From positions 1 through 64,000 of the forward strand of contig PLJH01000076.1 in assembly GCA_003139615.1 (NCBI GenBank): DNA of 64,000 bases. The letters are read 5' to 3'. Below, piece after piece: positions 4,018 to 36,747 of the stretch. The notes beneath the pieces are model-generated. The model had not been told where the DNA came from. It saw nothing but the letters and a program-made list of their open reading frames with translations, and did not search any database. This stretch comes from Alphaproteobacteria bacterium (GTDB taxonomy: Bacteria > Pseudomonadota > Alphaproteobacteria > Micropepsales > Micropepsaceae). The translations under genes and the position numbers were made by a program. The stretch's first letter is position 1, and each line of letters starts with the position of its first letter.

Positions 4018-5418
4018 GTGCGCTACGACGCTGCCATCATCGGCGCGGGCGCAGAGGGCCTGGCGGCAGCGGCATTGCTGGCCGGTGCCGGTGCCAGGAC
4101 CATTGTGGTCGAGCGAAGCGAACGTGCCGGAGGGCGCGCGACGACGCGCGAATTCCATCCGGGCTTCCGCGCCTCGCCCTTCGCCGATGAACTGCCTCCG
4201 ATTCCCGCCGACATCTATTGGGCGCTCGATCTCGCCCGCCGCGGCGCGATCTTTCGGCCCGCGCCCGTGTCGCCTGCGGCCCGACGGTTTCTGAGAGACG
4301 TCGAGCGTCGCGCGGCCGACATCCGGGCGCGAGCTGTCGCCGGGATCGACAGCGCGCCGGATCACTCTTTCTTCTCTAGGCCTGCCGTTCCAGCGCCGTG
4401 GCCGGGCGAGGACTGGATGGCGTTATCGCTCGCCGACGTGCTCGCGCGCGAGCCGCCTGACATCGCGGCCCATCTTGCGGCGGCGGCGCTCAGCGGCAGT
4501 GTCGCCGATCCCTACCTGGCAGGCAGCGCGCTTCATCTCCTGACTTTGCCCCGCTCCGGATTCGTCACGGGTGGGCTCGCAAGTCTGGCAAATGCACTCG
4601 TCGGTGCGGCGCACGAGGCGGGTGCCGACATCTCGCTGGGCCACGACGTGACGGACATCCGCCATGCGAAGGGCCGGGTGTCCGGCATCGGACTGGCCGA
4701 CGGCTCCGAGATCGAGGCGCGCGCAGTGATCTCAACGCTCGACCTGAAGCGCACCTTCCTCTCCTTCTTCCAGTGGAACGCGCTGCCGAAGGAGATCGTC
4801 CACGCCGTCGGCACGTTCCGAATGGCGGGCGCTGCGGCGCGCGTCCTGTTCGCGCTCGACACAATGCTCCCGGACGCAGCGCGCGACCGAATCCACGTCT
4901 CGTCCGATCTTGAGCAACTCGCGGCCGCCAACACCGTCTGGCGCACCGGCATGATCGCGCCGCGCTTGCCCGTCACGTTGCGAATCGTCTCGGCGGCCGA
5001 TGCGGGGCTCGCGCCTCTCGGCCAATCTGTCGTCACGGCGACGCTCGGCGCGGTGCCGTTCCGGCTGTTCGACGGCGCCTGGACACGCGAGAAGCGAGAG
5101 GTGTTGCGAATGCAGGCGCTGGCGGCTCTCGAGACTGCAATGCCGGGCGCAGGCGCGCATGTGATCGCCGCCGAGGTGATCGCGCCGCCGGATATCGAGG
5201 AGGCGCTTGGCGCGACCGACGGCGATCTCATGGGCGGCGCACTGGCGGCCGATCAAATGCTGAGTGCGGGACCCTGGCCTGACGTTCCGTTTCCGCGGTG
5301 CCCGTTGAAGGGCCTGTATCTCGCGGGTTCGTGGCTCGCGATGTCGGGGACGTGTGTTGCGGGCGCCGCGGCCGCGCGCACGGTTGCGGCCGATATCGCA
5401 AGTGGAACGCTCAAATGA
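4018..5418 (+). CDS. CrtI/COG1233-like FAD-dependent oxidoreductase (first of two)
   Basis: 466 residues with an N-terminal Rossmann motif (GAGAEGLAAA at ~residues 9-18, then the acidic VVERSERAGGRATT strand-turn that binds the FAD ribose) and a C-terminal FAD-closing segment (GLYLAGSWLAMSGTCVAGAA). This is the architecture of phytoene-desaturase-like and PYROXD2-like oxidases; no carotenoid genes are near, so the substrate is unknown. GTG start at 4018, preceded by AGGA. It is the first gene of a coupled operon: its stop overlaps the next start (ATGA at 5415-5418). The second gene encodes a protein of the same family, so the pair may form a heteromer. Confidence 0.85.
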   Translation: MRYDAAIIGAGAEGLAAAALLAGAGARTIVVERSERAGGRATTREFHPGFRASPFADELPPIPADIYWALDLARRGAIFRPAPVSPAARRFLRDVERRAADIRARAVAGIDSAPDHSFFSRPAVPAPWPGEDWMALSLADVLAREPPDIAAHLAAAALSGSVADPYLAGSALHLLTLPRSGFVTGGLASLANALVGAAHEAGADISLGHDVTDIRHAKGRVSGIGLADGSEIEARAVISTLDLKRTFLSFFQWNALPKEIVHAVGTFRMAGAAARVLFALDTMLPDAARDRIHVSSDLEQLAAANTVWRTGMIAPRLPVTLRIVSAADAGLAPLGQSVVTATLGAVPFRLFDGAWTREKREVLRMQALAALETAMPGAGAHVIAAEVIAPPDIEEALGATDGDLMGGALAADQMLSAGPWPDVPFPRCPLKGLYLAGSWLAMSGTCVAGAAAARTVAADIASGTLK

Positions 5419-6866
5419 GCGCCATCGTCGTGGGCGGCGGCGTGAACGGGCTCGTGGCGGCGACCTATCTCGCGCGCGCCGGCCGGAAGGTTGTGCTGCT
5501 CGAAGCGAAAGACGCGCTCGGCGGCGCTTGCGCGACCACGACGTTCGCAACGGGCTTCAAAGGTCCCACGATCGCGCATGCGCTCACGGCGCTTGATCCG
5601 CGCGTTGTCGCCGAGCTGAAACTTGCGCGTCGCGGCCTGAAATTCGCCGTGCGCGATATGCCGACGGTCGCGTTGCGTGCCGACGGCAAGCATCTCGTGA
5701 TCGGCCGGGATGTGCGGGCGACGGCGCGCGGCATCGCGGCCCATTCGCGTGCAGACGCCGAGGCGTGGCCCCGCTTTCGCCGCGAGTTGTTCGATCTCGC
5801 GCGCGCGATGCGGCCCTTCTGGTGGGACGAGCCGAAGCGTGGTTGGAATTTGCCGCCGACAATCGCAACGCTGCGGCGGCAAAATCTCGCCGCGTGGCTC
5901 GATTCAAGATTTGAATCCGATGCAGTGAAAGCGGCAGTCGCCTGTGACGCAAGCGGATTGTCTCCGCTCGTCCCCGGTTCGCCGCTGCTGCTTGTGTGGC
6001 GTGGGTGCCAAGAGATGTGCGGGCTGCAGAGCGCTGCGGCCATTCCGCTGGGCGGGCCGGGCGCGCTGGTCGATGCGCTGACGGCAGCGGCGAAAGTCGC
6101 CAGCGTCGAATTGCGCACCGGCGCGCATGTGGCCGACATCCTCGTAAAAGACGGTGCCGCCACCGGTGTGGTTCTGGAGTCCGGCGAGGAGATCGTCGCA
6201 AAGCGCGTGCTCGCAAGCCTGTCCCACAGTCAATTGCTCGCAACCAAAGCCGGCCGTTCGGCATTGGGCATCGGCGAAAGTACGGCGTTGGAACGTTCTG
6301 TTCCTGCCGTTGCATCCGCAAAGGTGCTGCTGGCGCTGAATGCGGCTCCCAATTTCGGCGGAAGCCCTTCGCGCGGGCGCTTCCTGCTGGCCGACAAGAT
6401 CGAAACATTTGTGACGGCGCACGCCGCGTCGCGCGCCGGATGCATGCCTGAAGAACTCGCGCTCGAGGTGGTTGTGCCGACCGCGGCCGATCCTGCGCTT
6501 GCGCCGATGGGACAACATGTGGTGAGCATCCGCATCGCGCCGTTGCCGCGACATCTGGCCGGTGGTTGGGATGCGGCTAAAGCGCCGCTTGCCGCGAAGG
6601 CCATCGCCGCGCTTGAACGTTGCGCGCCCGGCCTCGCGCGTCATGTGACGGCAGCACAGGTGTTGACACCGGACGACATCGCGAAGCGTTACGGTGAAGA
6701 AGATGAAGTGACTGTGGAGCGTGTGATGTCGGATTGGCCGTCGCGTATCCTGACGCCGATCAAAGGCCTCTTCCTGTGCGGTGCTGCGTCCGAACCTGTC
6801 GGCGCGGTGTCGGGCCGGGCAGGGCGCATCGCGGCGGCGCACGCCTTGCGGGAAGCGGCGAAATGA
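5415..6866 (+). CDS. CrtI/COG1233-like FAD-dependent oxidoreductase (second of two)
   Basis: 483 residues from the ATG at 5415. The FAD-binding Rossmann motif is VGGGVNGLVAATYLARAG followed by VVLLEAKDALGGAC, and the C-terminal segment is GLFLCGAASEPVGAVSGRAG. Same fold class as the preceding gene but clearly diverged from it, so not a recent duplication. Translation is coupled to both neighbours (ATGA overlaps at 5415-5418 and 6863-6866). Together with the downstream GcvT-like gene the arrangement recalls, without matching, oxidase plus folate-domain enzymes such as dimethylglycine or sarcosine dehydrogenases, whose oxidases are of a different (DAO) type. Function unknown. Confidence 0.85.
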   Translation: MSAIVVGGGVNGLVAATYLARAGRKVVLLEAKDALGGACATTTFATGFKGPTIAHALTALDPRVVAELKLARRGLKFAVRDMPTVALRADGKHLVIGRDVRATARGIAAHSRADAEAWPRFRRELFDLARAMRPFWWDEPKRGWNLPPTIATLRRQNLAAWLDSRFESDAVKAAVACDASGLSPLVPGSPLLLVWRGCQEMCGLQSAAAIPLGGPGALVDALTAAAKVASVELRTGAHVADILVKDGAATGVVLESGEEIVAKRVLASLSHSQLLATKAGRSALGIGESTALERSVPAVASAKVLLALNAAPNFGGSPSRGRFLLADKIETFVTAHAASRAGCMPEELALEVVVPTAADPALAPMGQHVVSIRIAPLPRHLAGGWDAAKAPLAAKAIAALERCAPGLARHVTAAQVLTPDDIAKRYGEEDEVTVERVMSDWPSRILTPIKGLFLCGAASEPVGAVSGRAGRIAAAHALREAAK

Positions 6867-7993
6867 AAAAGCCGGTCGTTCGCGCCACGCCGTTCCATGC
6901 CCGCGCCGCAGCCGCCAATCTCGAAAATACGTGGGTCACGCGCAACGGCATCACGCTTGCGTCTTCCTATGCCGATGCGAATGACGAAGCGCTGGCGGCG
7001 CGGCTGCGCGTTGTGATCGCCGATATCTCCTGGCGGTGGCGTGTGATGCTGGAAGGCCCGCGCGTGGTGGAGTTTCTTGCGAAGCTCGTGACCCGCGATG
7101 TGTCGAAGCTCGCGCCAGGTGCATCGCTTAAGGCGCTATGGCTTGCCGATGGCGGGGGTGTGCGGGGGGCCGGGGTGTTCGCGCGCTATGGCCGGGAATC
7201 GTTTCTGCTTGCTGCCTCCGCGCCAGATCCGGATTGGATTGCCGAGGCTGCGGCGCCCTATGACGTCAAGTTGCGCGACATGAACGAGGAAGGCGGCCTC
7301 GCAATCGTCGGCCCCACTGCGCAGGCGACTCTGCAGGCGGCGCAATTGCCCGTCGATCTCGAACCGCTCGCATTCCGCAAACTCTCCTGGCGCGGGATCG
7401 AAGTGACCCTGTCACGCTTTGGCGAGCATGGCGGTTTTGAAATCTGGTGTGCGCCGGACGACGGCGTTCTCGTCTGGGATCGCATCGCGCGTGCCGGCGA
7501 AAGCTTCGGACTCGAACCCGCAGGGGTTGCCGCGATGGACATGCTCGATCTCGAGGCAGGCATCGCGCGACCCGAGCGCGATTATGAGCCGGCACGGGAC
7601 GGCACCGCGAGCGGGCCGAGTCCCGTGGCGCTGGGACTGGAATCTTTGATCGATGTCGAGCATCAGGTATTCAACGGGCGTGCGGCTTATCTCGCGTCGC
7701 GCGAGAAAGAACCGAAGCGGCTTGCCGGCATCGAAATCGACTCCGACACGCCCGCGCCGTTCACGCCGCTGCTCCTGAAAGGCCGCGTGGTCGGCCACAC
7801 TTTGCGCTCGGTCTGGTCGCCGGTCCTGCGCCGCGCGATCGCGCTGGCGCAGATCGATGTCTCGTGTTTCGCGCCGGGCACGAAGCTGACGCTCACTCTC
7901 CCGCCGTCTCTGGCGGTCCCCGAACTGCGAACCGCATCGGCGTGCGTCACGGCATTGCCGTTTCTCAAGGTTCCTGATTCCATCGCCCCATGA
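6863..7993 (+). CDS. GcvT-like aminomethyltransferase-fold protein lacking the catalytic Asp
   Basis: 376 residues with GcvT/YgfZ-fold features: a VTRDVSKLAPGASLKALWLADGGG stretch-like N-domain core, MDMLDLEAGI in the central domain, and a C-terminal barrel containing GRVVGHTLRSVWSPVLRRAIALA. In the glycine-cleavage T-protein the segment after the Gly-Gly turn reads GGVIDDL and its first Asp is catalytic; here residues 97-104 read GGGVRGAG, so that Asp is missing. The Cys-containing motif of YgfZ (KGCYxGQE) is also absent. ATG at 6863 overlaps the previous stop. Likely a folate-binding or scaffolding partner of the two FAD proteins; that role is inference from the operon. Confidence 0.75.
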   Translation: MKKPVVRATPFHARAAAANLENTWVTRNGITLASSYADANDEALAARLRVVIADISWRWRVMLEGPRVVEFLAKLVTRDVSKLAPGASLKALWLADGGGVRGAGVFARYGRESFLLAASAPDPDWIAEAAAPYDVKLRDMNEEGGLAIVGPTAQATLQAAQLPVDLEPLAFRKLSWRGIEVTLSRFGEHGGFEIWCAPDDGVLVWDRIARAGESFGLEPAGVAAMDMLDLEAGIARPERDYEPARDGTASGPSPVALGLESLIDVEHQVFNGRAAYLASREKEPKRLAGIEIDSDTPAPFTPLLLKGRVVGHTLRSVWSPVLRRAIALAQIDVSCFAPGTKLTLTLPPSLAVPELRTASACVTALPFLKVPDSIAP

Positions 7994-26759: not shown

Positions 26760-27586
26760 CCGAGCGCGTCGTAAAGCATCCGCCCCGTCATCAGCACGAT
26801 GAAAAGCGCCAGCAGGATGCGGAAGCGATTGGCGTCCGTCATCTGGCCGAGTGCCGAGCCGGCACGCGCGGTCGCGAAAGAGATGGGCGCGATGAGCAAT
26901 ACGCCGAGCAGGTTCACATAGCCGAACGAATAAGGCGGAAGGCCCGGCGCATGCCAGCCCAGCACGATGGCCGCGATCGTTCCGGGAATCGTAATGATCG
27001 CGCCGAACAAAGTTGCCGACGCAATCGCGCGCGGCGCCGGCATGCCGAACGAGGTCAACGCCGGCACGCCCAATGTGCTGACGCCAGTCCCCATCATGGC
27101 GGAGACACCGCCCGTGAGCGCAGGTATTGCGAGGCCGCCCGCGCCGGACGGCAAACGATACGCCAGGCGCCGCTTCTCGCCGCTGAACGCGAACCACAGC
27201 GCCACGACAAGCGCCACACATGCAAAGTTCAGCGCAAGCGTGCGATCGCTCAGGACGCCAACCAGCGCACATCCGATGAGTGCTCCGACAAACATCGGAA
27301 TGCTCCAGCCGCGCAGCAGATCTCGATCCACAGCATCGCCACTCTGCGTTGCGAGAATGGACGCGAGCGACACCGGAAGGATTGCGGCGAGCGAGGTTCC
27401 GATCGCCAGATGCATGCGCAGCGATTCATCGACACCGATCAGCACCAGCACATGATAGAGCACCGGCACGACCACGATGCCGACATCGACGCCCAACGTG
27501 CCGGCGATTAGTCCACCGAAGACCGCCGCGATCGCAAGCCCCAGTGCAAGCGTGCCCAATTCGCCGGACGCAAGGACAAAATGCAT
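26756..27586 (-). CDS. TauE/SafE-family membrane transporter
   Basis: 276 residues from the ATG at 27586; about eight membrane helices in two repeats, with the typical glycine-rich starts (AAVFGGLIAGTLGVDVGIVV and ALTGGVSAMMGTGVSTLGVP). Family members export or import sulfite, sulfoacetate, sulfonates or related anions; the substrate cannot be told. The start lies 1 bp downstream of the dusA stop, so it may be co-transcribed with dusA. C-terminus (ANRFRILLALFIVLMTGRML) is the last helix. Confidence 0.88.
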   Translation of the reverse strand: MHFVLASGELGTLALGLAIAAVFGGLIAGTLGVDVGIVVVPVLYHVLVLIGVDESLRMHLAIGTSLAAILPVSLASILATQSGDAVDRDLLRGWSIPMFVGALIGCALVGVLSDRTLALNFACVALVVALWFAFSGEKRRLAYRLPSGAGGLAIPALTGGVSAMMGTGVSTLGVPALTSFGMPAPRAIASATLFGAIITIPGTIAAIVLGWHAPGLPPYSFGYVNLLGVLLIAPISFATARAGSALGQMTDANRFRILLALFIVLMTGRMLYDALG

Positions 27587-27587
27587 C

Positions 27588-28595
27588 TCAGGCAGCCGCA
27601 AGGTCGCCGGCGCGTTGCAGATGTGCAAGCGCATCGCGCAAAACGCCGATCCCTGCGCCGGCCCGCGTCGCGTTCTCGCTCAGATGGCGGCGGAACAGCC
27701 GCGCGCCGGGCCTTCCGCTGAAGAGACCGAGCATATGCTTTGTCATCGCGTGCAGCGGCACGCCTTTCGCGAGTTGTGCACCTACATAGTCGCAATACGC
27801 GTCCGTCGCCGCATCGATCTCGCGCGCATCGCCGCCGAAGAAGCGTGCATCTACCTGTGCGAGGATGGCGGGCGACTGATAGGCGGCGCGCCCCAGCATC
27901 ACGCCGTCGGCATGTTCGAGGTGTCGCGCCGCCTCGTCGAGAGTGGCGATGCCGCCATTGACAACGATAGTAAGTTCGGGCCGCTCGCGCTTGACGCGAT
28001 AGACGAGGTCGTAATCGAGTGGCGGCTTCTCGCGATTGTCTTTGGGCGACAGACCTTCGAGCCAAGCCTTGCGCGCGTGAACGGCAAAGATCGTCACACC
28101 GGCTTGCGCGCAGGCATCGATCAGCGTGCGCAAACTCTCCTCGGGGTTTTGATCGTCGACGCCGAGCCGGCATTTCACGGTGACGGGCACGGGCACCGCT
28201 GCACGCATCGCTGCCACGCAATCGGCCACCAGCGCGGGCTCGCGCATCAGGCACGCGCCGAAGCGACCCGACTGCACGCGATCCGAAGGGCACCCGACAT
28301 TGAGATTGATTTCGCTGTAACCGAATTCCGCGCCGATGCGTGCCGCTTCTGCGAGCCGTGTCGGCTCCGCGCCGCCGAGCTGCAGAGCGACGGGGTGCTC
28401 GACCGCATCGAAACCGAGCAGCCTCGCGCGATCGCCGCGGATCACCGCCTCAGCCGTCACCATCTCGGTGTAGAGAAGCGCCTGCGACGACAACAGACGG
28501 TGCAACACCCGGCAATGCCGGTCCGTCCACTCCATCATGGGGGCGACCGCGAAGATTTTCTGCCCGGCCGCCAACGGTTTAGAGATCGCAGTCAT
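27588..28595 (-). CDS. dusA: tRNA-dihydrouridine(20/20a) synthase
   Basis: 335 residues from the ATG at 28595. FMN-dependent reduction of uridine 20/20a in the tRNA D-loop. The TIM-barrel start VAPMMEWTDRHCRVLHRLLS is diagnostic for DusA, and the catalytic Cys is in NLNVGCPSDRVQSGRFGACL. KCRLGVDDQ and FAVHARKAWLEGLSPKDNRE are FMN/tRNA contact segments also typical of DusA. The C-terminal helical tRNA-binding domain is present. Upstream in-frame sequence to 28913 does not look coding. Confidence 0.95.
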   Translation of the reverse strand: MTAISKPLAAGQKIFAVAPMMEWTDRHCRVLHRLLSSQALLYTEMVTAEAVIRGDRARLLGFDAVEHPVALQLGGAEPTRLAEAARIGAEFGYSEINLNVGCPSDRVQSGRFGACLMREPALVADCVAAMRAAVPVPVTVKCRLGVDDQNPEESLRTLIDACAQAGVTIFAVHARKAWLEGLSPKDNREKPPLDYDLVYRVKRERPELTIVVNGGIATLDEAARHLEHADGVMLGRAAYQSPAILAQVDARFFGGDAREIDAATDAYCDYVGAQLAKGVPLHAMTKHMLGLFSGRPGARLFRRHLSENATRAGAGIGVLRDALAHLQRAGDLAAA

Positions 28596-29283
28596 GGCAG
28601 AAATCGCAATTCGGCGGTTGTCCGGGTGGTTCGCGCCGTTCATCTCCACGATATCGAGGAAATTGGCAAGCGTATCCCGCGCTGGTGCGTTAACCCTTGG
28701 CGCTGTGCTCGCCGTCAATGCGACTGCGAAATGCTCCGAATCCGGATATCGGAAGGCGATGCGCCGAAGCGGCGACAGAACGCCGCTCAATGTGGGCTGG
28801 TCATAGGAACCCGAAGCCGCACAGGAGGTGAGGCAGGCGTCGCCTGCGCCGAGCGAAACTCCGCGCCCGTTCTGGGTTACGATCGGTTTGCGTACTGACA
28901 ACGAAGCTCGCACCAGTGACTTGGTCTCCCGTAAGGCGCACGCGCGAACTCGCGGGCGAGCACCGCCGCACCGAATTGCCGGGAGGTTATTCGCGCGATT
29001 TTCGGGATTCTTGGCGAGGAACGAACGGATTGGTATGGCGCGATCAAGCCGGAAAAATGCGATCTGTGTACTGCGGCGCCGCGGAATCGATCCGCAGGGT
29101 CGACGAAGTCAGGGCGTTTTGGCGAGCCCAGAATGAAGTCCATCTTCTCTTGAAAAGGACTTCTCGCAGCTTGCAATTGTCATCCGTCCCATACAATGTG
29201 TGGTTGAGTATTGGCGCGACTAGCGTATTTCGAGTGTTCGTTGAGACTGTTGATTCGTAGTCGTTTCGGGGCTTTGGACTCGC
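28596..29283. other. Gene-poor stretch of about 690 bp upstream of the DyP/P450 operon
   Basis: ORFs exist in several frames, for example 28916-29260 on the plus strand, but none has a clear start, ribosome site or recognisable protein character. A short palindrome GCAGGCG-T-CGCCTGC is near 28832-28846. The sequence between 29100 and 29260 is more AT-rich and may contain the promoter of the following operon. I see nothing else that can be supported. Confidence 0.35.
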
Positions 29284-29952
29284 ATGTCGAACATCGCCGG
29301 CAAGGCGTACGCCATGAACGTCATCACGCCGGTGCCGCCGGCTTTGACGTGGCTTCAGTGGTTGATTTTCATGGTATCGCGAGCTCTGCCGAGTAAATTG
29401 CAGGGTCTTCTGGGATTGAGCCTCATCCATTTTGCGCGCTGGGTCATCATTCGCCGCGACCAATGGCCGGATCTGGGGCAGGGCAAGCAGGCGCTTCGAT
29501 ATGACTACATGCTCTTCTGCAGCAATTTCAACGGCACCTGGGATCAGTACATCGACGCGTTCTCCGACGGAATTCCGGCCGGTCTTGATTTGTATTGGTA
29601 CGCCAGCGCCAAATATCCCCATTCGATCCCGATCACGCCATTCAAGACGTACATCGTCTACAATCAGATCGATACGGATTACTATTATAACGCGACGCCG
29701 GGCGCGGCGCAGCGCGATATTAAATCCGCGCTGAAAGTGCTCATAGAAATACGCGATTTGGCCGATCTTCACGCGCGCGGCGACGCACATACCTTTGCCG
29801 TTGCTTATCGAAAATCGCTTCTCAAGGTTCAGGCGTGCCTCGGCTCACACGGCGTTGCGCCGACTGCGAGCCTCGACACCGAAAACGCCGAACGCATCCG
29901 GTACGGCATGGGACGCGTGACCGACCCGAGCCAAGAATCCGGGAGGCCGTAG
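29284..29952 (+). CDS. Unrecognised protein, first gene of the DyP/P450 cluster
   Basis: 222 residues. Residues 20-56 are strongly hydrophobic (LTWLQWLIFMVSRALPSKLQ then GLLGLSLIHFARWVII) and may lie in or on the membrane. The core contains YDYMLFCSNFNGTWDQYIDA (residues 73-92) and NQIDTDYYYNATPGAA (127-142), giving a compact alpha-beta domain rich in aromatic residues. A similar but weaker pattern occurs in the next gene, so the two may be distant relatives. Weak ribosome site; Met11 is a possible alternative start. Stop is one base before the next start. Function unknown; context implies work with a peroxidase and a P450. Confidence 0.7.
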   Translation: MSNIAGKAYAMNVITPVPPALTWLQWLIFMVSRALPSKLQGLLGLSLIHFARWVIIRRDQWPDLGQGKQALRYDYMLFCSNFNGTWDQYIDAFSDGIPAGLDLYWYASAKYPHSIPITPFKTYIVYNQIDTDYYYNATPGAAQRDIKSALKVLIEIRDLADLHARGDAHTFAVAYRKSLLKVQACLGSHGVAPTASLDTENAERIRYGMGRVTDPSQESGRP

Positions 29953-29953
29953 G

Positions 29954-30889
29954 ATGCCGAACTACGATGCGGGTCATTACTTTCTGACGGCGCTTGTGCC
30001 GGTAAAGCTCGATTCGGTGCTCGTCGACGGGCAGAGTCGCTCTCGTCGTCATGCAATCAAAGGCGTGCTCGATGCGGCGCCGGCCGGCGAGACCACGGCA
30101 GGTTTACGTGGAAAGGTCATCCCCAATCCATTTGCCGACAGCATGAGGACGCATTTCGCCCGCTTCTTCGTGTTGGACGATGTCGTATTCAATGGCCGGG
30201 TTTCATGCAATTCGCTGGTCTCGACAATTCTCGGGATCGATCCGCTGAAAGCGCAGCCCGTCGATCGCCTGTCGAGCCCCTTTTTGATCTTCGCTGTGGA
30301 CTTCGACGCGGCCAGCGGCGCGGACACCGAGCTGAAGAGCTATCTCGTCGAGCTTTGGGGCACTATGCGGGTTAAATTGGCCCAGGTATTTCAACATTGT
30401 GTCGGCTTTGATTCGATCTCCGATGCAAATGGCTTTTTTGCCTACATCAAGAAATGCCAGATCGAGACGACGATGCCGTTCAATGATTATTGGGCCACGC
30501 CGCCGAAACTGAGCGACATCAATTTGCTCGCATATCTGATCGCAGGGCTTGCCGCGCTGGCGGCCGCAATCGTGGGCGCATTCGGTTGGCAACCCTGGTT
30601 AATGCCCGCCGGTCTTTTGGCTCTGGCCGCCGTCTTGTTGCTGTTCATCGTAAACCTCCTCAGAAAAGCAAAGGCGCCGTTCCCGAAATCTCCTCCGCCG
30701 GGACCGAGTTCGGACCTGCCGACTGTTCTCAAGGCGCTCTTTCTGCAACGCGCGTTCACGCAATTTGCGATCGACGCGCAGGGTCTGGACGATCAGGCGA
30801 TATATGACCGGTTCGGCGCGTTCATCGCCGATAACAAGCCGCAAAGTATCGGTGCGCCGACGCAACCGCCGGGCGTCGTCGGCACATGA
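29954..30889 (+). CDS. Unrecognised membrane-anchored protein, second gene of the DyP/P450 cluster
   Basis: 311 residues. A soluble N-terminal domain (1-185) has THFARFFVLDD (66-76), LIFAVDFDA (111-119) and FQHCVGF (146-152), a beta-alpha-beta pattern reminiscent of the ferredoxin-like halves of DyP-type proteins. Two membrane helices follow (about 191-212 and 216-236), then a Pro-rich linker (KSPPPGPSSDLP) and a C-terminal helical part. It starts 1 bp after the previous stop and ends 13 bp before the DyP gene, so all are surely co-transcribed. I do not recognise the family; a membrane partner for the DyP or P450 enzyme is an inference. Confidence 0.75.
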   Translation: MPNYDAGHYFLTALVPVKLDSVLVDGQSRSRRHAIKGVLDAAPAGETTAGLRGKVIPNPFADSMRTHFARFFVLDDVVFNGRVSCNSLVSTILGIDPLKAQPVDRLSSPFLIFAVDFDAASGADTELKSYLVELWGTMRVKLAQVFQHCVGFDSISDANGFFAYIKKCQIETTMPFNDYWATPPKLSDINLLAYLIAGLAALAAAIVGAFGWQPWLMPAGLLALAAVLLLFIVNLLRKAKAPFPKSPPPGPSSDLPTVLKALFLQRAFTQFAIDAQGLDDQAIYDRFGAFIADNKPQSIGAPTQPPGVVGT

Positions 30890-30902
30890 TCGGGAATATC
30901 CG

Positions 30903-32546
30903 ATGACACGAGGACTCGATCTCGCCGACATCCAGGGCAATATCGTGCGGCCTTATGGCCGTTTCGGATTTCCGTTCGCACGTCACTTTTTCTTCCATAT
31001 CGGAACTCCCGCCGCCGGACGGAAATTCGTTGAGCAAATCCGTCATCGCGTCACGACGGCGGAACGGTGGCGCGACACGGACAGTGGAACAACCGAAGAT
31101 TCGCCGCCCCGGCCGAAAGTCACGATCAATATCGGCTTCTGTCACCAGGGTCTGATTGCCCTGGCGCTTCCGACAGAAACCCTCAGCGGTCTGCCGGAAG
31201 AATTCGTTGACGGCATGGAAAAGCGCTGGAGTATCCTCGGCGATATTGGCGACAGTGCGCCCGGCAAGTGGGATCCGATCTGGTGCGACTCTCACAGCAC
31301 GCCCGAAAAGCGGATTCATATCTGGGTTTCGTTGAATGCGCAGATCGAAGCGAACGGCCAGCCGGTCGCGGAACTCGCCGCGCTGACGCAGTGGCTGTAC
31401 GATATCGCCGGAAATTCTGGTGGCGTGATCCCGTTGTCGGGGCATAGAGGACCTTCGGGCGATTTTCAGGACTCGGCCGCGCTTATGCAGACACTGCCCG
31501 ATGGCCGTTGCGTTCCCACGTCTCAAATATTCTTCGGTTTCACGGACGGCATCGCGGATCCCGTCTTTGCCGATCAATACGACCCGAAGGATGAGCCGGA
31601 TGAGGTGGTCGGCGGCGGCAAGCTGGAATCCGGCGATGAAGGCTGGAGTCCGCTCGCCACGGGTGAATTCATTCTCGGACATGCGAACGAGGCGCAGGAG
31701 TTGCCGCCGACCCCGCAGCCCTGGTCGCTCATGCGAAACGGGACGTTCATGGTCTATCGAAAGGTGCACCAAAACGTTGCCAGTTTCAGTGAATATGTCT
31801 TGTCGCAGGCTTCTTTGCTGAAACAAGTTGGCGGGGCTGCGAGCCGCGAAGAGGCCGAGGATACGATCCGGGCAAAGATGGTGGGCCGTTGGCCGAACGG
31901 CATCCCTCTGATCGCTGCACCAACCTGGACTGACGCCCAAGCTCTCGGAGCACAATGGAAAGACATTCCCGCGATACAACTCAAACGAACCGGAGAGCGG
32001 ACCGATGCCGCGAAAGCCCGGCTGGCGGATTACGAGAAGCTCGTCACCGACATTCGCTACCGCGACGATGTTTCGGGCGCAAAATGCCCTGTCTCGGCGC
32101 ATATCCGGCGGGCCAATCCTCGCGATGCGCTCGACCCATTCTTCGGCGTATCTGGAAAATCGCCCGGTTCGGCGCTGACCAATCGCCGCCGCATCATGCG
32201 CCGCGGTCTGCCTTATGGCGGCTCATCTCCTTGTGACAATACGAGCGAGCACGGCGTGATCTTCATGGCGCTCTGCGCGAGCTTGTTCCGGCAATTCGAG
32301 TTCATCCAGCAACAATGGATTCAATATGGGTCGAGCTTCAATCTCGGAAACGATACCGATCCCGTAATAGGGCTTCACCGCGAGGGTGCGAAATTCGTGG
32401 TCCCTGCCGATCCCGACAAGGCCGACGCGCCTTTCATTTGCGCAAACATGCCGCAATTCGTGGAGACGCGCGGCGGCGAATATTTCTTCATACCGAGCTT
32501 GACGGCGTTGCGCGAAATCGCCCAAGGCAGCGTCGATCCGACCTGA
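30903..32546 (+). CDS. DyP-type heme peroxidase
   Basis: 547 residues from the ATG at 30903, long for the family (300-450 in short classes), so closest in size to the extended (C/D, or V) class. N-domain begins LDLADIQGNIVRPYGR. The distal motif GFTDGIADP places catalytic Asp at residue 215; the proximal heme ligand is His400 in KCPVSAHIRRANPRD; distal Arg lies in NRRRIMRRGLPYG (427-439). No signal peptide or Tat motif, so probably cytoplasmic. Oxidises an organic substrate with peroxide. Located between an unknown membrane protein and a P450 in one operon, which is an unusual combination. Confidence 0.93.
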   Translation: MTRGLDLADIQGNIVRPYGRFGFPFARHFFFHIGTPAAGRKFVEQIRHRVTTAERWRDTDSGTTEDSPPRPKVTINIGFCHQGLIALALPTETLSGLPEEFVDGMEKRWSILGDIGDSAPGKWDPIWCDSHSTPEKRIHIWVSLNAQIEANGQPVAELAALTQWLYDIAGNSGGVIPLSGHRGPSGDFQDSAALMQTLPDGRCVPTSQIFFGFTDGIADPVFADQYDPKDEPDEVVGGGKLESGDEGWSPLATGEFILGHANEAQELPPTPQPWSLMRNGTFMVYRKVHQNVASFSEYVLSQASLLKQVGGAASREEAEDTIRAKMVGRWPNGIPLIAAPTWTDAQALGAQWKDIPAIQLKRTGERTDAAKARLADYEKLVTDIRYRDDVSGAKCPVSAHIRRANPRDALDPFFGVSGKSPGSALTNRRRIMRRGLPYGGSSPCDNTSEHGVIFMALCASLFRQFEFIQQQWIQYGSSFNLGNDTDPVIGLHREGAKFVVPADPDKADAPFICANMPQFVETRGGEYFFIPSLTALREIAQGSVDPT

Positions 32547-32600
32547 TCGAGGCGACTTCGAGAGACCCAAGCTCGGCGAAGTTCGCGAAAGGGCCAGAAC

Positions 32601-33965
32601 ATGTCGGCAATCAAATCGTTCTTTGTAGCGCTCTGGACGCAGCTTCGGATTTTCATGTCCGGAATCGCAGGACTTGCACGGCTGATCGCGATGGCGATCG
32701 AAAGCCTCATCGGCAGCGGCGGGAGCATACGATCGCGGCTTACGGCACGCCTCACTTCGGCGGACGGGCAGCGCGCGATTTTCGATATCGCTCGCGCGTT
32801 CGCTCCGAATGTCGTGCTTTCGACAAAATTAATCGCCGCCTACGACAATAGCGGCACTGTCCTGGTGACGCGGTTCGACGATGTGAAAGACGTTCTGAGT
32901 CGAGACCAGGATTTCGAAGTCGTCTACGCTCCGCGCATGATGCAGATCACTGCCGGGCGAAACTTCTTTCTCGGCATGCAGGACACGCCGGACTATACGC
33001 GCGATACGACCAATATGCGCCTCGCAGTGCGCCGCGACGACGTTCTTACGATCGTGAAGCCGTTCGCCGCGAAAAGGGCTGCGGAACTTGTCGAAGCAAA
33101 GACCGGGCGGATCGATGTGCCGCAGGATCTGACTCTGCGCGTGCCGGCACAACTTCTCGGCGCCTATTTCGGAACGCCGGGCCCGTCCGAACGGCAGATG
33201 ATCGAATGGACCACGCTGATGTTCTGGTACCTCTTCATCGATCTCGGTGCCGACACGGAGCTCGATGCACGGGCTCTCGACGCCGCTGCGCAATGCCGGT
33301 CCTATCTCGATGCGGCGATACAGGATCGGAAGGCGCACCCCAGCTCGAATGACGATGTGCTCAATCGCTGCCTCGCGATGCAGCAGGCCGGGTTACCGGG
33401 TATGGACGATCTGGGAATTCGCGACAACCTCATCGGATTGATCATCGGCGCGATTCCAACAACGTCCAAGGCGGCCGTTCAAGCGCTGGATCAGCTGCTC
33501 GATCGTCCGGATGCGCTGGCCGGTGCCCAGGGCGCGGCGCAATCGGACGACGATGAATTATTTGCGCGCTATGCGTTCGAGGCGTTGCGGTTCAATCCGG
33601 TGAACCCCGTGATCTATCGACGTGCCACGCGCAAGACCGTAATTGCGCCGCATACCTTGCGATCCGTCGAAGTTCCGCAATCGAGCATGGTTCTTGCCGC
33701 AAATTTGTCGGCCATGTTCGACCGTCTAAAAATCGATGATCCCAATGGATTTCGAATTGATCGGCCGGCGGACAATTACATTCTTTGGGGTGACGGGCTT
33801 CATGCGTGTTTCGGCGCGCATATCAATCGCGCGCTTATTCCCGCCATCCTGAAGCCCCTGTTGCGGCAACGGAAGCTGCGTCGCGCCGCGGGTCCCGCCG
33901 GCCGGATCGATTCCGACAACACGCCGTTTCCGGTGCACATGTGGCTCGAATTCGAAGCGGTTTAG
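32601..33965 (+). CDS. Cytochrome P450 with an altered I-helix
   Basis: 454 residues. The heme loop ILWGDGLHACFG gives the thiolate ligand Cys403; the K-helix ExxR is FEALR (Glu327, Arg330). The I-helix segment reads IIGAIPTTS (281-289): where most monooxygenases have (A/G)GxD/ET, the acidic residue is Pro286. The N-terminal 40 residues are hydrophobic and amphipathic (FFVALWTQLRIFMSGIAGLA), suggesting membrane attachment. No ferredoxin or reductase gene is near. Loss of the acid residue plus the neighbouring DyP gene raises the chance of a peroxide-linked or isomerase/lyase-type reaction. Last gene of the operon, 54 bp after the DyP gene. Confidence 0.9.
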   Translation: MSAIKSFFVALWTQLRIFMSGIAGLARLIAMAIESLIGSGGSIRSRLTARLTSADGQRAIFDIARAFAPNVVLSTKLIAAYDNSGTVLVTRFDDVKDVLSRDQDFEVVYAPRMMQITAGRNFFLGMQDTPDYTRDTTNMRLAVRRDDVLTIVKPFAAKRAAELVEAKTGRIDVPQDLTLRVPAQLLGAYFGTPGPSERQMIEWTTLMFWYLFIDLGADTELDARALDAAAQCRSYLDAAIQDRKAHPSSNDDVLNRCLAMQQAGLPGMDDLGIRDNLIGLIIGAIPTTSKAAVQALDQLLDRPDALAGAQGAAQSDDDELFARYAFEALRFNPVNPVIYRRATRKTVIAPHTLRSVEVPQSSMVLAANLSAMFDRLKIDDPNGFRIDRPADNYILWGDGLHACFGAHINRALIPAILKPLLRQRKLRRAAGPAGRIDSDNTPFPVHMWLEFEAV

Positions 33966-34186
33966 AAGCGACAGCGGAACAGGCCCGCGGGCGAATGTCT
34001 TCGCGCCGATCTGTGGGGAGACTATGGTCGCCGAACCGCGGACTCTCGATGGGAAGCGGTGCCATCGGTGCCCAGTGCCCATCGCGCGCGAATTGCAATA
34101 GGATTGCAACGCGACTGCACCGAACTCGAGGGTGATCTATGCGCGACTGGAAGGGCACCAGCCGGACCTCTGAGCGTTTGAGCTAA

Positions 34187-34540
34187 GGCGTCTTCGGAAT
34201 GGACAGGACGCCGCGATGGGCAGGCTGGCTCACGGCGAGCGACGCTGTCACGGGTGCGCAGAGATGGCAATTCAAAGCGCTCGCGCCCGTCCTGGGTGGC
34301 GTCACGCCGACGAAGGGCGGCATCGTTCTGTTCGGAGATATCAGCGGGAATTTCTATGCCTTCGATTCCGCGACAGGAAAGCAACTCTGGACAAGCAATC
34401 TTGGCGGCGCCGTTGCCGGCGGAGTCATCACCTACGACACGGGCAAAGGACAGAAGGTCGCCGTTGCCGCCGGTATGACATCGCCCATCTGGCCGACGGC
34501 GCCAGTGACGGCCAAGATCGTCGTGCTTGGAATCAAGTAG
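34187..34540 (+). pseudogene. C-terminal remnant of a PQQ-dependent dehydrogenase
   Basis: An open frame of ~118 codons preceded by an in-frame TAA (34184-34186) encodes only the last blades of a PQQ-type beta-propeller: GWLTASDAVTGAQRW, GGIVLFGDISGNFYAFDSAT and GKQLWTSNLGGAVAGGVI, ending SPIWPTAPVTAKIVVLGIK. Intact enzymes have ~550-700 residues and a signal peptide; both are missing, and the preceding 33966-34186 stretch shows no matching sequence in any frame that I can see. It is therefore a 5'-deleted relic. The first Met in frame (34199) lacks a ribosome site. Confidence 0.75.
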
Positions 34541-34621
34541 GCGCAGCCCCATCTTTGGGGCACCTCTTCGAATATGTTAGAAAGAGGATTGCCGTTTGGC
34601 ACTATTTCCGCGGAGACCAAT

Positions 34622-35020
34622 ATGTCCGACAAGATCAAAAAGACCGACGAAGAGTGGCGCAGCCAATTGACGCCGACGCAGTTTGCCGTGACGCGGGAGA
34701 AGGCGACCGAGCGGCCCCATACCGGCGAATACGACAAAGTGACGACACCGGGCACCTATCGCTGCATCTGCTGCGGCGAAACGCTGTTCGAATCCGATCA
34801 GAAGTTCGACGCGGGTTGCGGCTGGCCGAGTTTCTCGAAGCCGGCCGTCGCCGGGAACGTCGCCGAAGAATCCGATCGCAGCCACGGCATGGTGCGTACG
34901 GAAGTGATGTGCGCCAAATGCGACGCGCATCTGGGTCATGTGTTCGACGACGGCCCCGGACCGACGGGACTGCGCTATTGCATCAATTCGGCGTCTTTGA
35001 AGCTCGATCCAAAGAAATAG
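34622..35020 (+). CDS. msrB: Peptide-methionine (R)-S-oxide reductase
   Basis: 132 residues. Reduces Met-R-sulfoxide in oxidised proteins. Zinc site: Cys48/Cys51 in [11 protein letters not shown] and Cys97/Cys100 in [13 protein letters not shown]. Catalytic Cys120 is in [21 protein letters not shown] is the substrate pocket segment. ATG at 34622 chosen over 34574 because the family starts near residue [16 protein letters not shown]. No signal peptide, so cytoplasmic. The stop region is repeated three times downstream (35011-35051). Confidence 0.96.
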
Positions 35021-35051
35021 GCCCGAAGAAATAGGCCTAAAGAAATAGGTC
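35011..35051 (+). repeat. Short tandem repeat over the msrB stop codon
   Basis: Three copies of a unit containing AAGAAATAGG followed by CC, CC and TC occur at 35011-35025, 35026-35038 and 35039-35051. Each copy recreates the Lys-Lys-stop end of msrB, as expected from local slippage duplication. Confidence 0.7.
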
Positions 35052-35124
35052 AGGCCGCAATTTCTGTCAGGTGAAGATGCTATCGGGATGCTTTGCTCTC
35101 CGCGTCTGAAAACCGGAGTTTGAT

Positions 35125-35958
35125 ATGCAGCTTGCAACCAAGGCCGTCTGGGTCATCGAGCGAAACCTGAACGGCGATCTTACGTTGAGCGGAATCGCCA
35201 GATCGTGTCAGGTTTCGTCGTTCCATCTTGCGCACGCTTTCGGTGCGGCCACCGGCCAACCGGTCATGAGTTATGTCCGCGGCCGGCGCTTGAGCGAAGC
35301 CGCGCGCAAGCTGGCGGATGATGCGCCGGACATTCTCGCGCTTGCGCTCGAGTCCGGTTACGCGTCGCATGAAGCGTTCACGCGCGCATTCAGGGAGCAG
35401 TTCGGCGCGACACCGGAGACGGTGAAACGCAACCATTCCACGGCATCGCTCGTGCTGGTGTCGCCGTTGGAACTGCCGGAAGGAACGCCCACGAAGCTGG
35501 ACGATCCGGAGATCGTCAAGAGCGATGCCATGTCGGTGGTGGGATTGGCGGAACGCCACGCCTTCGACGCGCCGTACAAAATTCCCGCGCAATGGCAGCG
35601 CTTCATGGGTGTGTACGGCCTGATCGAACGGAAGGTTGCCGAAATACCGGTCGGCGTGAGTTGCAATCTCGATGACGATGGCACATTCGACTATGTGTGC
35701 GGCGTGGAAGTCGCGCGCGGCAGTGAGGCGCCGAAAGGCTTGCAGAAAATCGCGATCCCCGCGCAGACCTATGCCGTGTTCCAGCATCTCACTCACATTG
35801 CGGGAATTGGGAACACCTATCTCGCGATCTGGAACTCCTGGCTCACTGATCACAACCGCACGATGGCCGACGGCCCCAGCATCGAACGCCACAAGAAAAC
35901 GTTCGATCCGCGCACCGGCGAGGGGGGCGTGGAAATCTGGATACCGCTGGCGGAGTGA
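35125..35958 (+). CDS. AraC-family regulator with C-terminal GyrI-like ligand domain
   Basis: 277 residues. The N-terminal ~100 residues are a double helix-turn-helix (LTLSGIARSCQVSSFHLAHA and ILALALESGYASHEAFTRAF, then REQFGATPETVKR). The C-terminal domain (MSVVGLAERHAFDAPYKIPA and FDYVCGVEVARG, ending GEGGVEIWIPL) matches the GyrI/Rob effector-binding fold for small hydrophobic ligands. This HTH-first, GyrI-second order is that of Rob-like activators. It converges with the enoyl-CoA hydratase gene (1 bp apart). Targets unknown. Confidence 0.92.
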   Translation: MQLATKAVWVIERNLNGDLTLSGIARSCQVSSFHLAHAFGAATGQPVMSYVRGRRLSEAARKLADDAPDILALALESGYASHEAFTRAFREQFGATPETVKRNHSTASLVLVSPLELPEGTPTKLDDPEIVKSDAMSVVGLAERHAFDAPYKIPAQWQRFMGVYGLIERKVAEIPVGVSCNLDDDGTFDYVCGVEVARGSEAPKGLQKIAIPAQTYAVFQHLTHIAGIGNTYLAIWNSWLTDHNRTMADGPSIERHKKTFDPRTGEGGVEIWIPLAE

Positions 35959-36747
35959 TTACGTTCCCGTGAAATTGCCTGCGCGGCGTTCGGCGACGGC
36001 CCGGACGCCTTCGGCGAAATCGGCCGTCTTGCGAAGGATCGCTTGTTCGGCGAATTCGTGATCGGTCTGCGATTTCACTTTGGCCGCGAGATCGCGACGC
36101 ATGGTGGCGCGTGTCGCCTGGACGGCAAGGGGCGCGTTCTCCGCGATCTCGCGCGCGAGTTTCAGCGCGGCATCGCGAAGCTGATCGAGCGGCGCGATCT
36201 CGTCGACCAGGCCCCAGGCGAGCGCTTCATCGGCCTTGATTCTGCGGCCTGTCAGGCACATCAGCGCGGCGCGCTGCTCGCCGATGAGACGCGGAAGCGT
36301 GTGCGTGATAGCGAAGCCCGGATGGAATCCGAGCTTCACGAAATTGGCCGTGAAGCGCGCTTCGGGGGCGGCCACACGAAAGTCCGCCACCAGCGCGAGG
36401 CCGAGACCGGCGCCGACCGCTGCACCCTGGACAGCGGCCACGATCGGTTTCTTCACGGAAAACAGCCGTACCGCCTCGATATAGAGCCCGCTGATGCCGG
36501 TGCCGCCTTCCGCATGCGCGATACCGGTAGGAGCCACCAGATCTGCGCCGGCGCAAAAGCTCTTGCCGGCCGTCGCGAGCACGGTTGCGCGCAAATCGCG
36601 TTCCGCATCGACGATGGCGAGCGCGTTGGCGAGATTGTGCATCAACTCGACCGTGACGTGATTGTGAGGCGGCCGGTCGATCTCGATCAGCGCCACATGT
36701 CCGTCGCGATGCAGCGACACCTCACCGAATTTGCTGTCCGTCGTCAT
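35959..36747 (-). CDS. Enoyl-CoA hydratase/isomerase family protein
   Basis: 262 residues from the ATG at 36747. Crotonase fold: oxyanion-hole segment SFCAGADLVAPTG, then VAAVQGAAVGAGLGLALVAD with the second oxyanion Gly. The glutamates of classical hydratases are replaced in part (FVKLGFHPGF rather than a Glu pair), so substrate and reaction may differ from bulk fatty acids. The ATGA overlap (36744-36747) with the upstream acyl-CoA dehydrogenase shows the two act in one pathway: dehydrogenation followed by hydration. Confidence 0.9.
   Translation of the reverse strand: MTTDSKFGEVSLHRDGHVALIEIDRPPHNHVTVELMHNLANALAIVDAERDLRATVLATAGKSFCAGADLVAPTGIAHAEGGTGISGLYIEAVRLFSVKKPIVAAVQGAAVGAGLGLALVADFRVAAPEARFTANFVKLGFHPGFAITHTLPRLIGEQRAALMCLTGRRIKADEALAWGLVDEIAPLDQLRDAALKLAREIAENAPLAVQATRATMRRDLAAKVKSQTDHEFAEQAILRKTADFAEGVRAVAERRAGNFTGT

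Follow-up and report, generated by a model that had tools for sequence, protein, structure and literature searches.

Fungal dioxygenase-P450 pairs have been described in which the P450s are called self-sufficient, and in the Ppo enzymes, or linoleate diol synthases, a haem peroxidase-type enzyme and a reductase-independent P450 lie in one polypeptide (PMC13049297, available part). The available part of a further paper mentions only a fungal peroxidase-P450 fusion (PMC4420034). In Pseudomonas aeruginosa, the oleate diol synthase operon encodes two haem enzymes, the first of which makes a fatty-acid hydroperoxide that is converted by the second, and the RoxA clade includes the hydroperoxide-forming oleate 10S-dioxygenase of this species (PMC4496055, available part). 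The two RoxA-related proteins (PA2077/PA2078) are both dihaem cytochromes c, with neither a P450 nor a DyP-type peroxidase between them. No DyP-P450 unit or fusion is described in the titles and abstract openings listed by searches of an open-access collection, which is weak evidence, as subscription papers lie mostly outside such a search. To our knowledge, no DyP acts as a fatty-acid dioxygenase, and few bacterial DyPs have a known physiological substrate.

Fungi and animals oxidise fatty acids with paired enzymes, and the locus described here looks like a bacterial equivalent that has not been described before. The reading that we prefer, at a probability of about 0.5, is that of two enzymes docked at the membrane for lipid oxidation: DyP would make or activate a lipid hydroperoxide, which a P450 working without redox partners would rearrange. 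The locus lies in the window (the whole stretch of DNA analysed, 64,000 nucleotides) and comprises four intact ORFs:

29284-29952, + strand: g1, 222 aa; family without a Pfam entry; homologue of g2
29954-30889, + strand: g2, 311 aa; family without a Pfam entry; modelled ferredoxin-like alpha+beta domain and predicted two-helix membrane hairpin
30903-32546, + strand: DyP-type haem peroxidase (gene 3), 547 aa from the ATG at 30903; Pfam DyP_N and Dyp_perox_C
32601-33965, + strand: cytochrome P450 (gene 4), 454 aa; Pfam p450; hydrophobic N-terminal segment

The intergenic gaps of 1, 13, and 54 nt bear out the tight one-strand packing reported in the initial annotation, and its naming of the last two genes agrees with Pfam scores above the cut-offs (DyP_N, 31.8 vs. 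27.5 bits gathering; Dyp_perox_C, 23.2 vs. 20 bits; p450, 27.5 vs. 22.8 bits). A single promoter-like site falls within the unit, in the P450 gene, where chance alone would give 1.9, which speaks neither for nor against separate promoters. There were no Rfam matches in positions 28000-36000 of the window, and no relatives of g1 or g2 were found on viral contigs.

Conservation, linkage, and fusion across genomes

The four-gene arrangement is a conserved system, far beyond chance, since in the best 80 of 536 confirmed g1 loci the gene after g1 is always g2 (80/80), and DyP comes next in all 76 loci with room for it. These 80 loci span three proteobacterial classes, and the g1-g2-DyP linkage also occurs in Granulicella (Acidobacteriota). 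Similarly, g1 was found in 22 of 299 Pseudomonadota genomes surveyed, with DyP beside it in 22/22, and the occurrence within the window's own family is 4 of 60 genomes. That g1 and g2 travel with DyP, as the initial annotation expected of a true system, is borne out in both sets, and their homologues did not occur mainly away from the DyP and P450 genes. The further idea that the two proteins are dedicated partners of a DyP-P450 pair was not supported in that form: in the same best 80 of 536 loci, a P450 follows in 53 of the 73 with room and is missing next to DyP in the other 20, and it is absent at the g1-DyP locus in 9 of the 22 survey genomes with g1. The P450 is accessory, not obligatory, and g1 and g2 are therefore regarded as dedicated to DyP rather than to the pair. 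Five of the 20 genomes with a P450-less triad carry the P450 subfamily elsewhere, four times again with DyP and once (L145) at a contig end, and inspection by eye of the first ORFs after DyP in P450-less loci revealed no constant gene in its place. The DyP tree (66 rows, 49 with and 17 without P450, excluding loci without room and near-duplicates) requires at least nine changes of P450 presence and does not tell gain from loss. Pairwise distances between components correlate across 47 loci (DyP-P450, r 0.81; DyP-g2, 0.91; permutation maximum, 0.20), with shared organism history contributing to these values.

Sequence organization also varies through fusion. A haem peroxidase fused to a P450 had been cited from fungal Ppo enzymes; such fusion is not confined to fungi, as bacterial relatives join all parts of the unit in single chains of about 1410-1540 residues with the order P450-[g2/g1-like region]-DyP. 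For example, the chain measures 1443 aa on pNL2 of Novosphingobium aromaticivorans DSM 12444 (SARO_RS19865) and 1423 aa in Pararhizobium, and single-chain frames of 1410-1542 and 1442-1443 residues occur in five survey genomes and three Mesorhizobium genomes, respectively. In addition, g1 and g2 lie within one frame in loci L011 and L077, and DyP and P450 share one 1067-residue frame in locus L142. Single-sequence tblastn over plasmids detected g1/g2 in Granulicella only, and a profile search added g1-like regions, diverged in sequence, on plasmids of Skermanella, Novosphingobium, and Pararhizobium. The unit differs from fungal Ppo in that the bacterial single chains start with the P450 and end with DyP, in that two extra related proteins (g1 and g2) are present, and in that the fungal partner belongs to the peroxidase-cyclooxygenase superfamily, whereas the partner here is a DyP, with no Pfam An_peroxidase match in the window protein.

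The g1 and g2 proteins and the DyP peroxidase

The first two proteins had been left unrecognised, and no Pfam or NCBIfam family comes near its cut-off for either; among PDB sequences, g1 has no match at E ≤ 1 and g2 a single one, at E 0.41. The strand pattern noted in both reflects homology, as judged from profile comparison (hhalign probability 94% for A1 vs. A4, only 64.5% for A3 vs. A4) and from HMMs of g1 and g2 that cross-match each other. Residues H49-F50-A51-R52-W53 and the block from S80 to D91 are invariant in g1. The g2 model (pLDDT 86.7) predicts a ferredoxin-like alpha+beta domain at about residues 6-180 and a hairpin at about 184-243, with hydrophobic helices at 191-209 and 216-239. 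The fold rows that cover the domain are mostly of the dimeric alpha+beta barrel superfamily (ABM, EthD, methylmuconolactone isomerase), with Z of 5-6.6 over about 95-110 residues, below the tool's secure-match level; the highest-scoring rows (Z 7.0) cover nothing but the hairpin, and the best Foldseek E with this model is 0.19. With these middling fold scores, g2 is modelled as a ferredoxin-like domain with a membrane hairpin attached, and it would differ from the barrel proteins in the added hairpin as well as in the PDB sequence comparisons, in which g1 lacks a match and g2 has only the one at E 0.41.

The suggestion that g2 resembles the ferredoxin-like halves of DyP proteins is supported by the modelled alpha+beta domain, at middling fold scores, and not by the sequence, as profile comparison of g2 with DyP gave no relationship (hhalign probability 0.2%); DyP structures are also absent among the g2 fold rows, although such absence does not exclude likeness. 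For g1, the model is poor (pLDDT 65.7) and gives no informative fold match, so that a ferredoxin-like fold is suggested solely through its homology to g2. The membrane features proposed earlier stand for the two g2 helices, whereas the N-terminal hydrophobic stretch of g1 is considered weak, since no 19-residue stretch exceeds 1.6 on the Kyte-Doolittle scale and a helix at 19-34 is predicted only in the poor model.

The assignment of gene 3 to the DyP superfamily is made from Pfam and from alignment to 8re3; its match to NCBIfam TIGR01413 (Dyp_perox_fam; E 4.9e-23) scores 81.9 bits, below the cut-off of 100.5. In 67 aligned rows, the catalytic Asp215 of GxxDG, the proximal His400, and Arg 428-430, 433, and 434, the candidates for the distal Arg, are invariant, and the counterparts of D215, H400, and the Arg region in 8re3 are GYKDG, GSHIRR, and the RIIRR region. 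The protein shares its sequence family and catalytic residues with DyP-type peroxidases and differs from them in its company (g1 and g2 at the examined loci, a fused P450 at some) and in length (547 residues vs. 442-493 in the solved relatives listed). Because the window DyP keeps the ordinary DyP catalytic residues, it may perform plain peroxidase chemistry, which counts against the lipid-oxidation reading.

The P450, its alternative partners, and proposed lipid oxidation

Cys403, Glu327, and Arg330 of the P450 are invariant in 46 rows, and the first residue of its haem loop (FxxGxxxCxG-like) is Trp396 in place of Phe. In the I helix, the acid is replaced by Pro286 in the window protein and lost in 67/67 DyP-partnered P450s (65 Pro, 1 Ala, and 1 Val), with Thr kept in 64 of these 67; the acid-alcohol pair of a classical O2-activating P450 is absent from all of them. 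The RoxA- and COX-partnered P450s keep the acid in 7/7, so its loss is not needed for work beside a dioxygenase. The CYP152 peroxygenases carry Arg-Pro in the I helix, and the acid-to-Pro change could accordingly recall a peroxygenase driven by H2O2, in which the P450 would use H2O2 itself and DyP would buffer peroxide to protect it. Such an enzyme would be expected to form the core of its locus, and the observed core is DyP with g1/g2 and the P450 the accessory, the opposite of the prediction, which leaves this explanation highly improbable.

An ordinary catabolic monooxygenase is a further explanation, in which the P450 would hydroxylate an external hydrophobic compound (terpene, steroid, or aromatic) and draw on redox partners from other parts of the genome, and DyP would remove peroxide or oxidise the product. 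The nearest solved relatives of the window P450, bacterial monooxygenases and uncharacterised P450s, favor it, as do two Skermanella relatives from oil-contaminated desert sites, but an I helix with Pro where the acid would stand poorly fits a classical O2-activating P450. The reported lack of a ferredoxin nearby agrees with a cysteine-motif scan of the window, which gave one match (- strand at 27236, in a frame that overlaps a different ORF), judged by eye to be chance. The same scan of 51 loci revealed no plausible ferredoxin gene, which likewise fits a classical P450 poorly; matches arose in 9/51 and were put down, on inspection by eye, to chance frames or large Fe-S proteins. No recurrent catabolic gene was recognised beside the unit either, in a noisy neighbour clustering that gave clusters in 5-7 loci without identity, and the catabolic explanation is considered distinctly unlikely.

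The partners of the P450 subfamily vary among genomes. At a threshold of E ≤ 1e-35, the subfamily was found in 16 of the 299 survey genomes, 13 times at g1-DyP loci and three times with a RoxA-like dihaem cytochrome c adjoining or one gene away. Among 13 plasmid records with a match covering at least 80% of the P450, the partner is DyP in four, RoxA-like in five, and COX-like in three, and one record (H45) starts only 126 nt from the P450 and is cut off there. The COX-like (An_peroxidase-type) partners lie on Rhizobium and Sinorhizobium plasmids; COX-2 is the best solved relative (E 4.6e-53), and both partners examined retain Y-x-W-H. For one RoxA-like partner, the only PDB match is RoxA-type 4b2n (E 7.6e-7 over 47 residues). 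In having RoxA-like proteins as one kind of alternative partner, the P450 subfamily resembles the P. aeruginosa operon. Streptomyces record H56 served as a control: its P450 (profile E 3e-21) does not belong to the subfamily and is part of a polyketide cluster, where neither DyP nor RoxA-like nor COX-like matches occur. The analogy with Ppo drawn in the initial annotation gains independent strength from this pairing of one P450 subfamily with COX-like and RoxA-like haem enzymes as well, and the natural fusion of the P450 to DyP, together with these other partners, makes lipid hydroperoxide chemistry the thing to look for.

A GST-like gene directly follows the P450 in 21 of the 80 loci (best 80 of 536), and this neighbour, the intact DyP active site, and an optional P450 would also suit a lipid-hydroperoxide defence, in which a membrane DyP with g1/g2 would reduce lipid hydroperoxides or H2O2 from oxidative stress, P450 and GST would detoxify secondary products, and no dedicated product would be made; katG and a Fur-family regulator lie a few genes from the Granulicella triad. 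Such a defence would hardly be expected to fuse P450 and DyP into one chain or to let a COX-like or RoxA-like enzyme take the place of DyP next to this P450, and the patchy occurrence (22/299 genomes; 4/60 in the window's family) better fits a specialised trait, so that we hold it to be rather unlikely.

Under the preferred lipid-oxidation reading, the unit would encode a complex docked on the inner membrane, in which the two homologous ferredoxin-like proteins g1 and g2 would pair and hold DyP at the membrane, with the helical hairpin of g2 as its anchor. DyP would act on an unsaturated lipid with a long chain, a fatty acid being the likeliest, and would oxidise it or activate its hydroperoxide. 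The P450, which lacks the I-helix acid of the proton relay and has no recognised ferredoxin gene nearby, would use the lipid hydroperoxide (or peroxide) directly and rearrange it to the final product, as the P450 half does in fungal Ppo; a GST-like protein may then take over the product in some bacteria. Conservation, linkage, fusion, the homology of g1 and g2, the exchange of partners by the P450, and its loss of the acid are observed; complex formation, membrane docking, the class of substrate, and the order of the two reactions are inferred. A DyP subfamily with fixed protein partners offers a testable handle on lipid hydroperoxide chemistry, and the findings suggest oxylipin-like routes in many Alphaproteobacteria, among them species associated with plants and the sea; g1 and g2 in addition define two protein families that Pfam does not cover.

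A bolder version, tentative and somewhat doubtful, is that DyP and the two ferredoxin-like subunits form a lipid dioxygenase of the membrane. Together with the P450, joined in some species by patatin, FadL, or GST, it would be a further, independently evolved version of the phospholipase-dioxygenase-P450-GST oxylipin route of COX/Ppo systems, one P450 subfamily having been combined with haem enzymes of three unrelated kinds (DyP, COX-like, and RoxA-like). We know of no membrane lipid dioxygenase in the DyP superfamily, and this would be the first. The preferred reading, too, gains from a patatin gene that lies between DyP and P450 in L128 and L129 (the patatin scan covered L128 only) and from a FadL-type porin that follows the P450 in both (both scanned); these are two similar genomes, and patatin and FadL were seen in these only.

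Conservation of the four-gene unit

The four open reading frames and the gaps of 1, 13 and 54 nt between them are as the initial annotation had placed them, and its naming of genes 3 and 4 as a DyP and a P450 is borne out by Pfam:

29284..29952, + strand: g1 (222 aa)
29954..30889, + strand: g2 (311 aa)
30903..32546, + strand: DyP (547 aa)
32601..33965, + strand: P450 (454 aa)
34574-35020: MsrB-like methionine sulfoxide reductase ORF (by eye)

No Pfam or NCBIfam family matched g1 or g2 near its cut-off, and no GST, patatin or FadL gene stands beside the unit in the window. Downstream of the P450, at 34199-35020, a short PQQ-dehydrogenase-like fragment precedes the MsrB-like ORF (by eye).

A five-row g1 alignment searched against one genome from each of 84,980 species gave at least 592 pattern matches, of which 536 were confirmed. 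The best 80 of these 536 (L010-L089), a sample biased toward the window's g1, comprise 67 Alpha-, 6 Beta- and 5 Gammaproteobacteria and 2 loci without a class, and their neighbours were located by tblastn with the four proteins of the window's unit and traced as reading frames. In these best 80 loci, g2 follows g1 throughout (80/80), DyP lies downstream in 76, the other four contigs ending before it, and a P450, in some cases fragmentary or cut, lies downstream in 53; it is missing in 20 although 1.6 kb or more of sequence was available, and seven are not judgeable. The expectation that g1 and g2 travel with both enzymes thus holds for DyP but only in part for the P450, and the unit is a conserved, DyP-centred system, at times fused, in which the P450 is accessory. 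Median gaps along the unit are 9.5, 3 and 13 nt (approximate, as starts were chosen automatically), and a single open frame holds g1 and g2 in two loci (L011 and L077). Pairwise distances among the four proteins correlate in the 47 complete loci (r 0.73-0.91; permutation maximum 0.20), in part also through common descent of the hosts.

A DyP tree of 66 rows requires at least nine changes of P450 presence, and no common substitute gene was seen in the place of the P450 in the P450-less loci. Five of the 20 P450-less genomes carry a P450 of the subfamily elsewhere: in three, all Mesorhizobium, it shares a frame of 1442-1443 residues with regions resembling g1 and DyP, in one it adjoins a 1002-residue g1-like/DyP frame, and in one it lies at a contig end.

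Survey genomes and fused versions

Among 299 Pseudomonadota genomes (the window's own included), g1 was found at E ≤ 0.001 in 22, and scanning of 20 regions and then eight more with family HMMs, taken together with the window, placed a DyP beside g1 in all 22 and a P450 in 13. One of the nine P450-less genomes (G111) has a RoxA-like gene instead: at 4391-7954 of its locus L134, a g1-like gene and DyP are followed on the same strand by a RoxA-like dihaem cytochrome c, with no P450 of the subfamily in this stretch. Within the family to which the window belongs, a g1-like match occurs in 4 of 60 genomes (the window's included), with DyP beside it in the other three as well (L140-L142), and this patchy occurrence suggests loss or horizontal movement of the unit. 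L140, from the window's genus (G317), has three tandem g1-like domains ahead of DyP and no P450. Phyla beyond Pseudomonadota were covered through the best 80 of the 536 g1 loci, and the only case noticed outside Pseudomonadota is a Granulicella tundricola plasmid (pACIX901, L002) with g1-g2-DyP and no P450, where a TonB receptor follows the triad and a Fur-family regulator and katG lie a few genes on. In two survey genomes (L124 and L127), the P450-less g1-DyP unit is preceded upstream by a GMC-type flavin oxidoreductase ORF (by eye).

The components may also form a single chain of P450, middle region and DyP, as in Novosphingobium aromaticivorans pNL2 (1443 aa) and Pararhizobium qamdonense (1423 aa). 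Both middle regions hold membrane stretches with a g2-like part, aligned by eye without an HMM match, and a g1-like part, which a g1 HMM built without these two sequences matches at 3e-4 and 3.6e-7, respectively. The same HMM matches stop-to-stop frames of 1410-1542 in five survey genomes (L117-L120 and L122; four from one genus) and, likewise, three Mesorhizobium frames. Other arrangements include three separate genes on two Skermanella plasmids (a g2+g1-like protein, DyP and P450), a 1067-residue DyP-P450 frame beside a separate g1-like gene (L142), and a 1599-residue frame containing g1-like and DyP regions (L144). Searches of the open-access literature (titles and abstract starts, weak evidence) found no description of a DyP-P450 unit or fusion. 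Genes belonging to one cluster directly precede the fused gene in L008 (annotated SARP regulator) and L009 (annotated adenylate/guanylate cyclase); a similar ORF precedes that of L117 (by eye), and another member lies two ORFs ahead of g1 in L074.

The g1, g2 and DyP proteins

The g1 and g2 proteins are homologous, with hhalign probabilities of 94% (alignments A1 vs A4) and 64.5% (A3 vs A4), and the g1 HMM matches g2 of L002, L131, L132 and L133. The g2 model (pLDDT 86.7) has a putative ferredoxin-like domain followed by a helical hairpin, and residues 6-180 match mostly dimeric alpha+beta barrel proteins (Z 5-6.6); the g1 model is poor. Apart from one row for g2 (E 0.41), neither protein has a sequence relative in the PDB. 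The DyP scores below the NCBIfam cut-off for TIGR01413; all 67 aligned rows share its catalytic Asp, its proximal His and a block of Arg residues, which line up with those of the solved DyP 8re3, so it should be active as a haem enzyme.

P450 partners and further neighbours

One P450 subfamily adjoins three unrelated haem enzymes: DyP, a COX-like enzyme and a RoxA-like dihaem cytochrome c. With a profile match at E ≤ 1e-35 as definition, the subfamily occurs in 16 of the 299 survey genomes, 13 times within g1-DyP loci and three times (L137-L139) with a RoxA-like gene adjacent or one gene away. In all 13 plasmid records with a tblastn match over at least 80% of the P450, the partner is DyP in four (two Skermanella, Novosphingobium, Pararhizobium), RoxA-like in five (Bradyrhizobium and four Methylobacterium, the latter with a single regulator gene between), COX-like in three (two Rhizobium, Sinorhizobium) and not seen in one, which is cut at its start. 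No DyP, RoxA-like or COX-like gene accompanies a Streptomyces P450 from outside the subfamily. The top solved relative of the Sinorhizobium COX-like protein is COX-2 (E 4.6e-53), with peroxinectin a distant second choice (4e-20), and both the Sinorhizobium protein and the R. etli protein (L006 and L007) retain Y-x-W-H, the site of the COX catalytic Tyr and proximal His. The adjacent P450 and COX-like genes on the Rhizobium and Sinorhizobium plasmids (L006, L007 and L155) form a bacterial counterpart of the fungal Ppo enzymes in which the two parts are not fused.

Across 74 aligned P450s, with partner class taken from HMM matches within the locus, the I-helix Asp/Glu position is Pro in 65, Ala in one and Val in one of the 67 DyP-partnered proteins and Glu in all five RoxA-partnered and both COX-partnered ones, a count that includes the close relatives L004 and L137 and precedes the later-examined plasmid loci. 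Loss of this acid argues against classical O2 activation by the DyP-partnered P450. When 51 loci with a P450 were scanned for ferredoxin motifs, nine gave matches, by eye chance frames or large Fe-S proteins.

We infer that the system carries out lipid hydroperoxide reactions at the membrane. We know of no precedent for a DyP as a fatty-acid dioxygenase, which, with the numerous P450-less triads, is the weakest point of this reading. Its strongest indirect argument is that the other P450 partners are dioxygenase-type: two of the three partner types have members that make fatty-acid hydroperoxides, and the oleate 10S-dioxygenase of P. aeruginosa belongs to the RoxA clade (PMC4496055).

In 21 of the 80 loci, a gene encoding GST C-terminal domains (scanned in three members) begins within 170 nt past the P450 match, whereas none of the 20 loci lacking a P450 has it; L131 also carries one. 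In two similar genomes (L128 and L129), a patatin-like phospholipase (Pfam-confirmed in L128) separates DyP from the P450, and a FadL-type porin lies downstream of the P450. In L058 the unit appears to be decaying: its g1, DyP and P450 frames look broken, while its GST-like gene is full-length.
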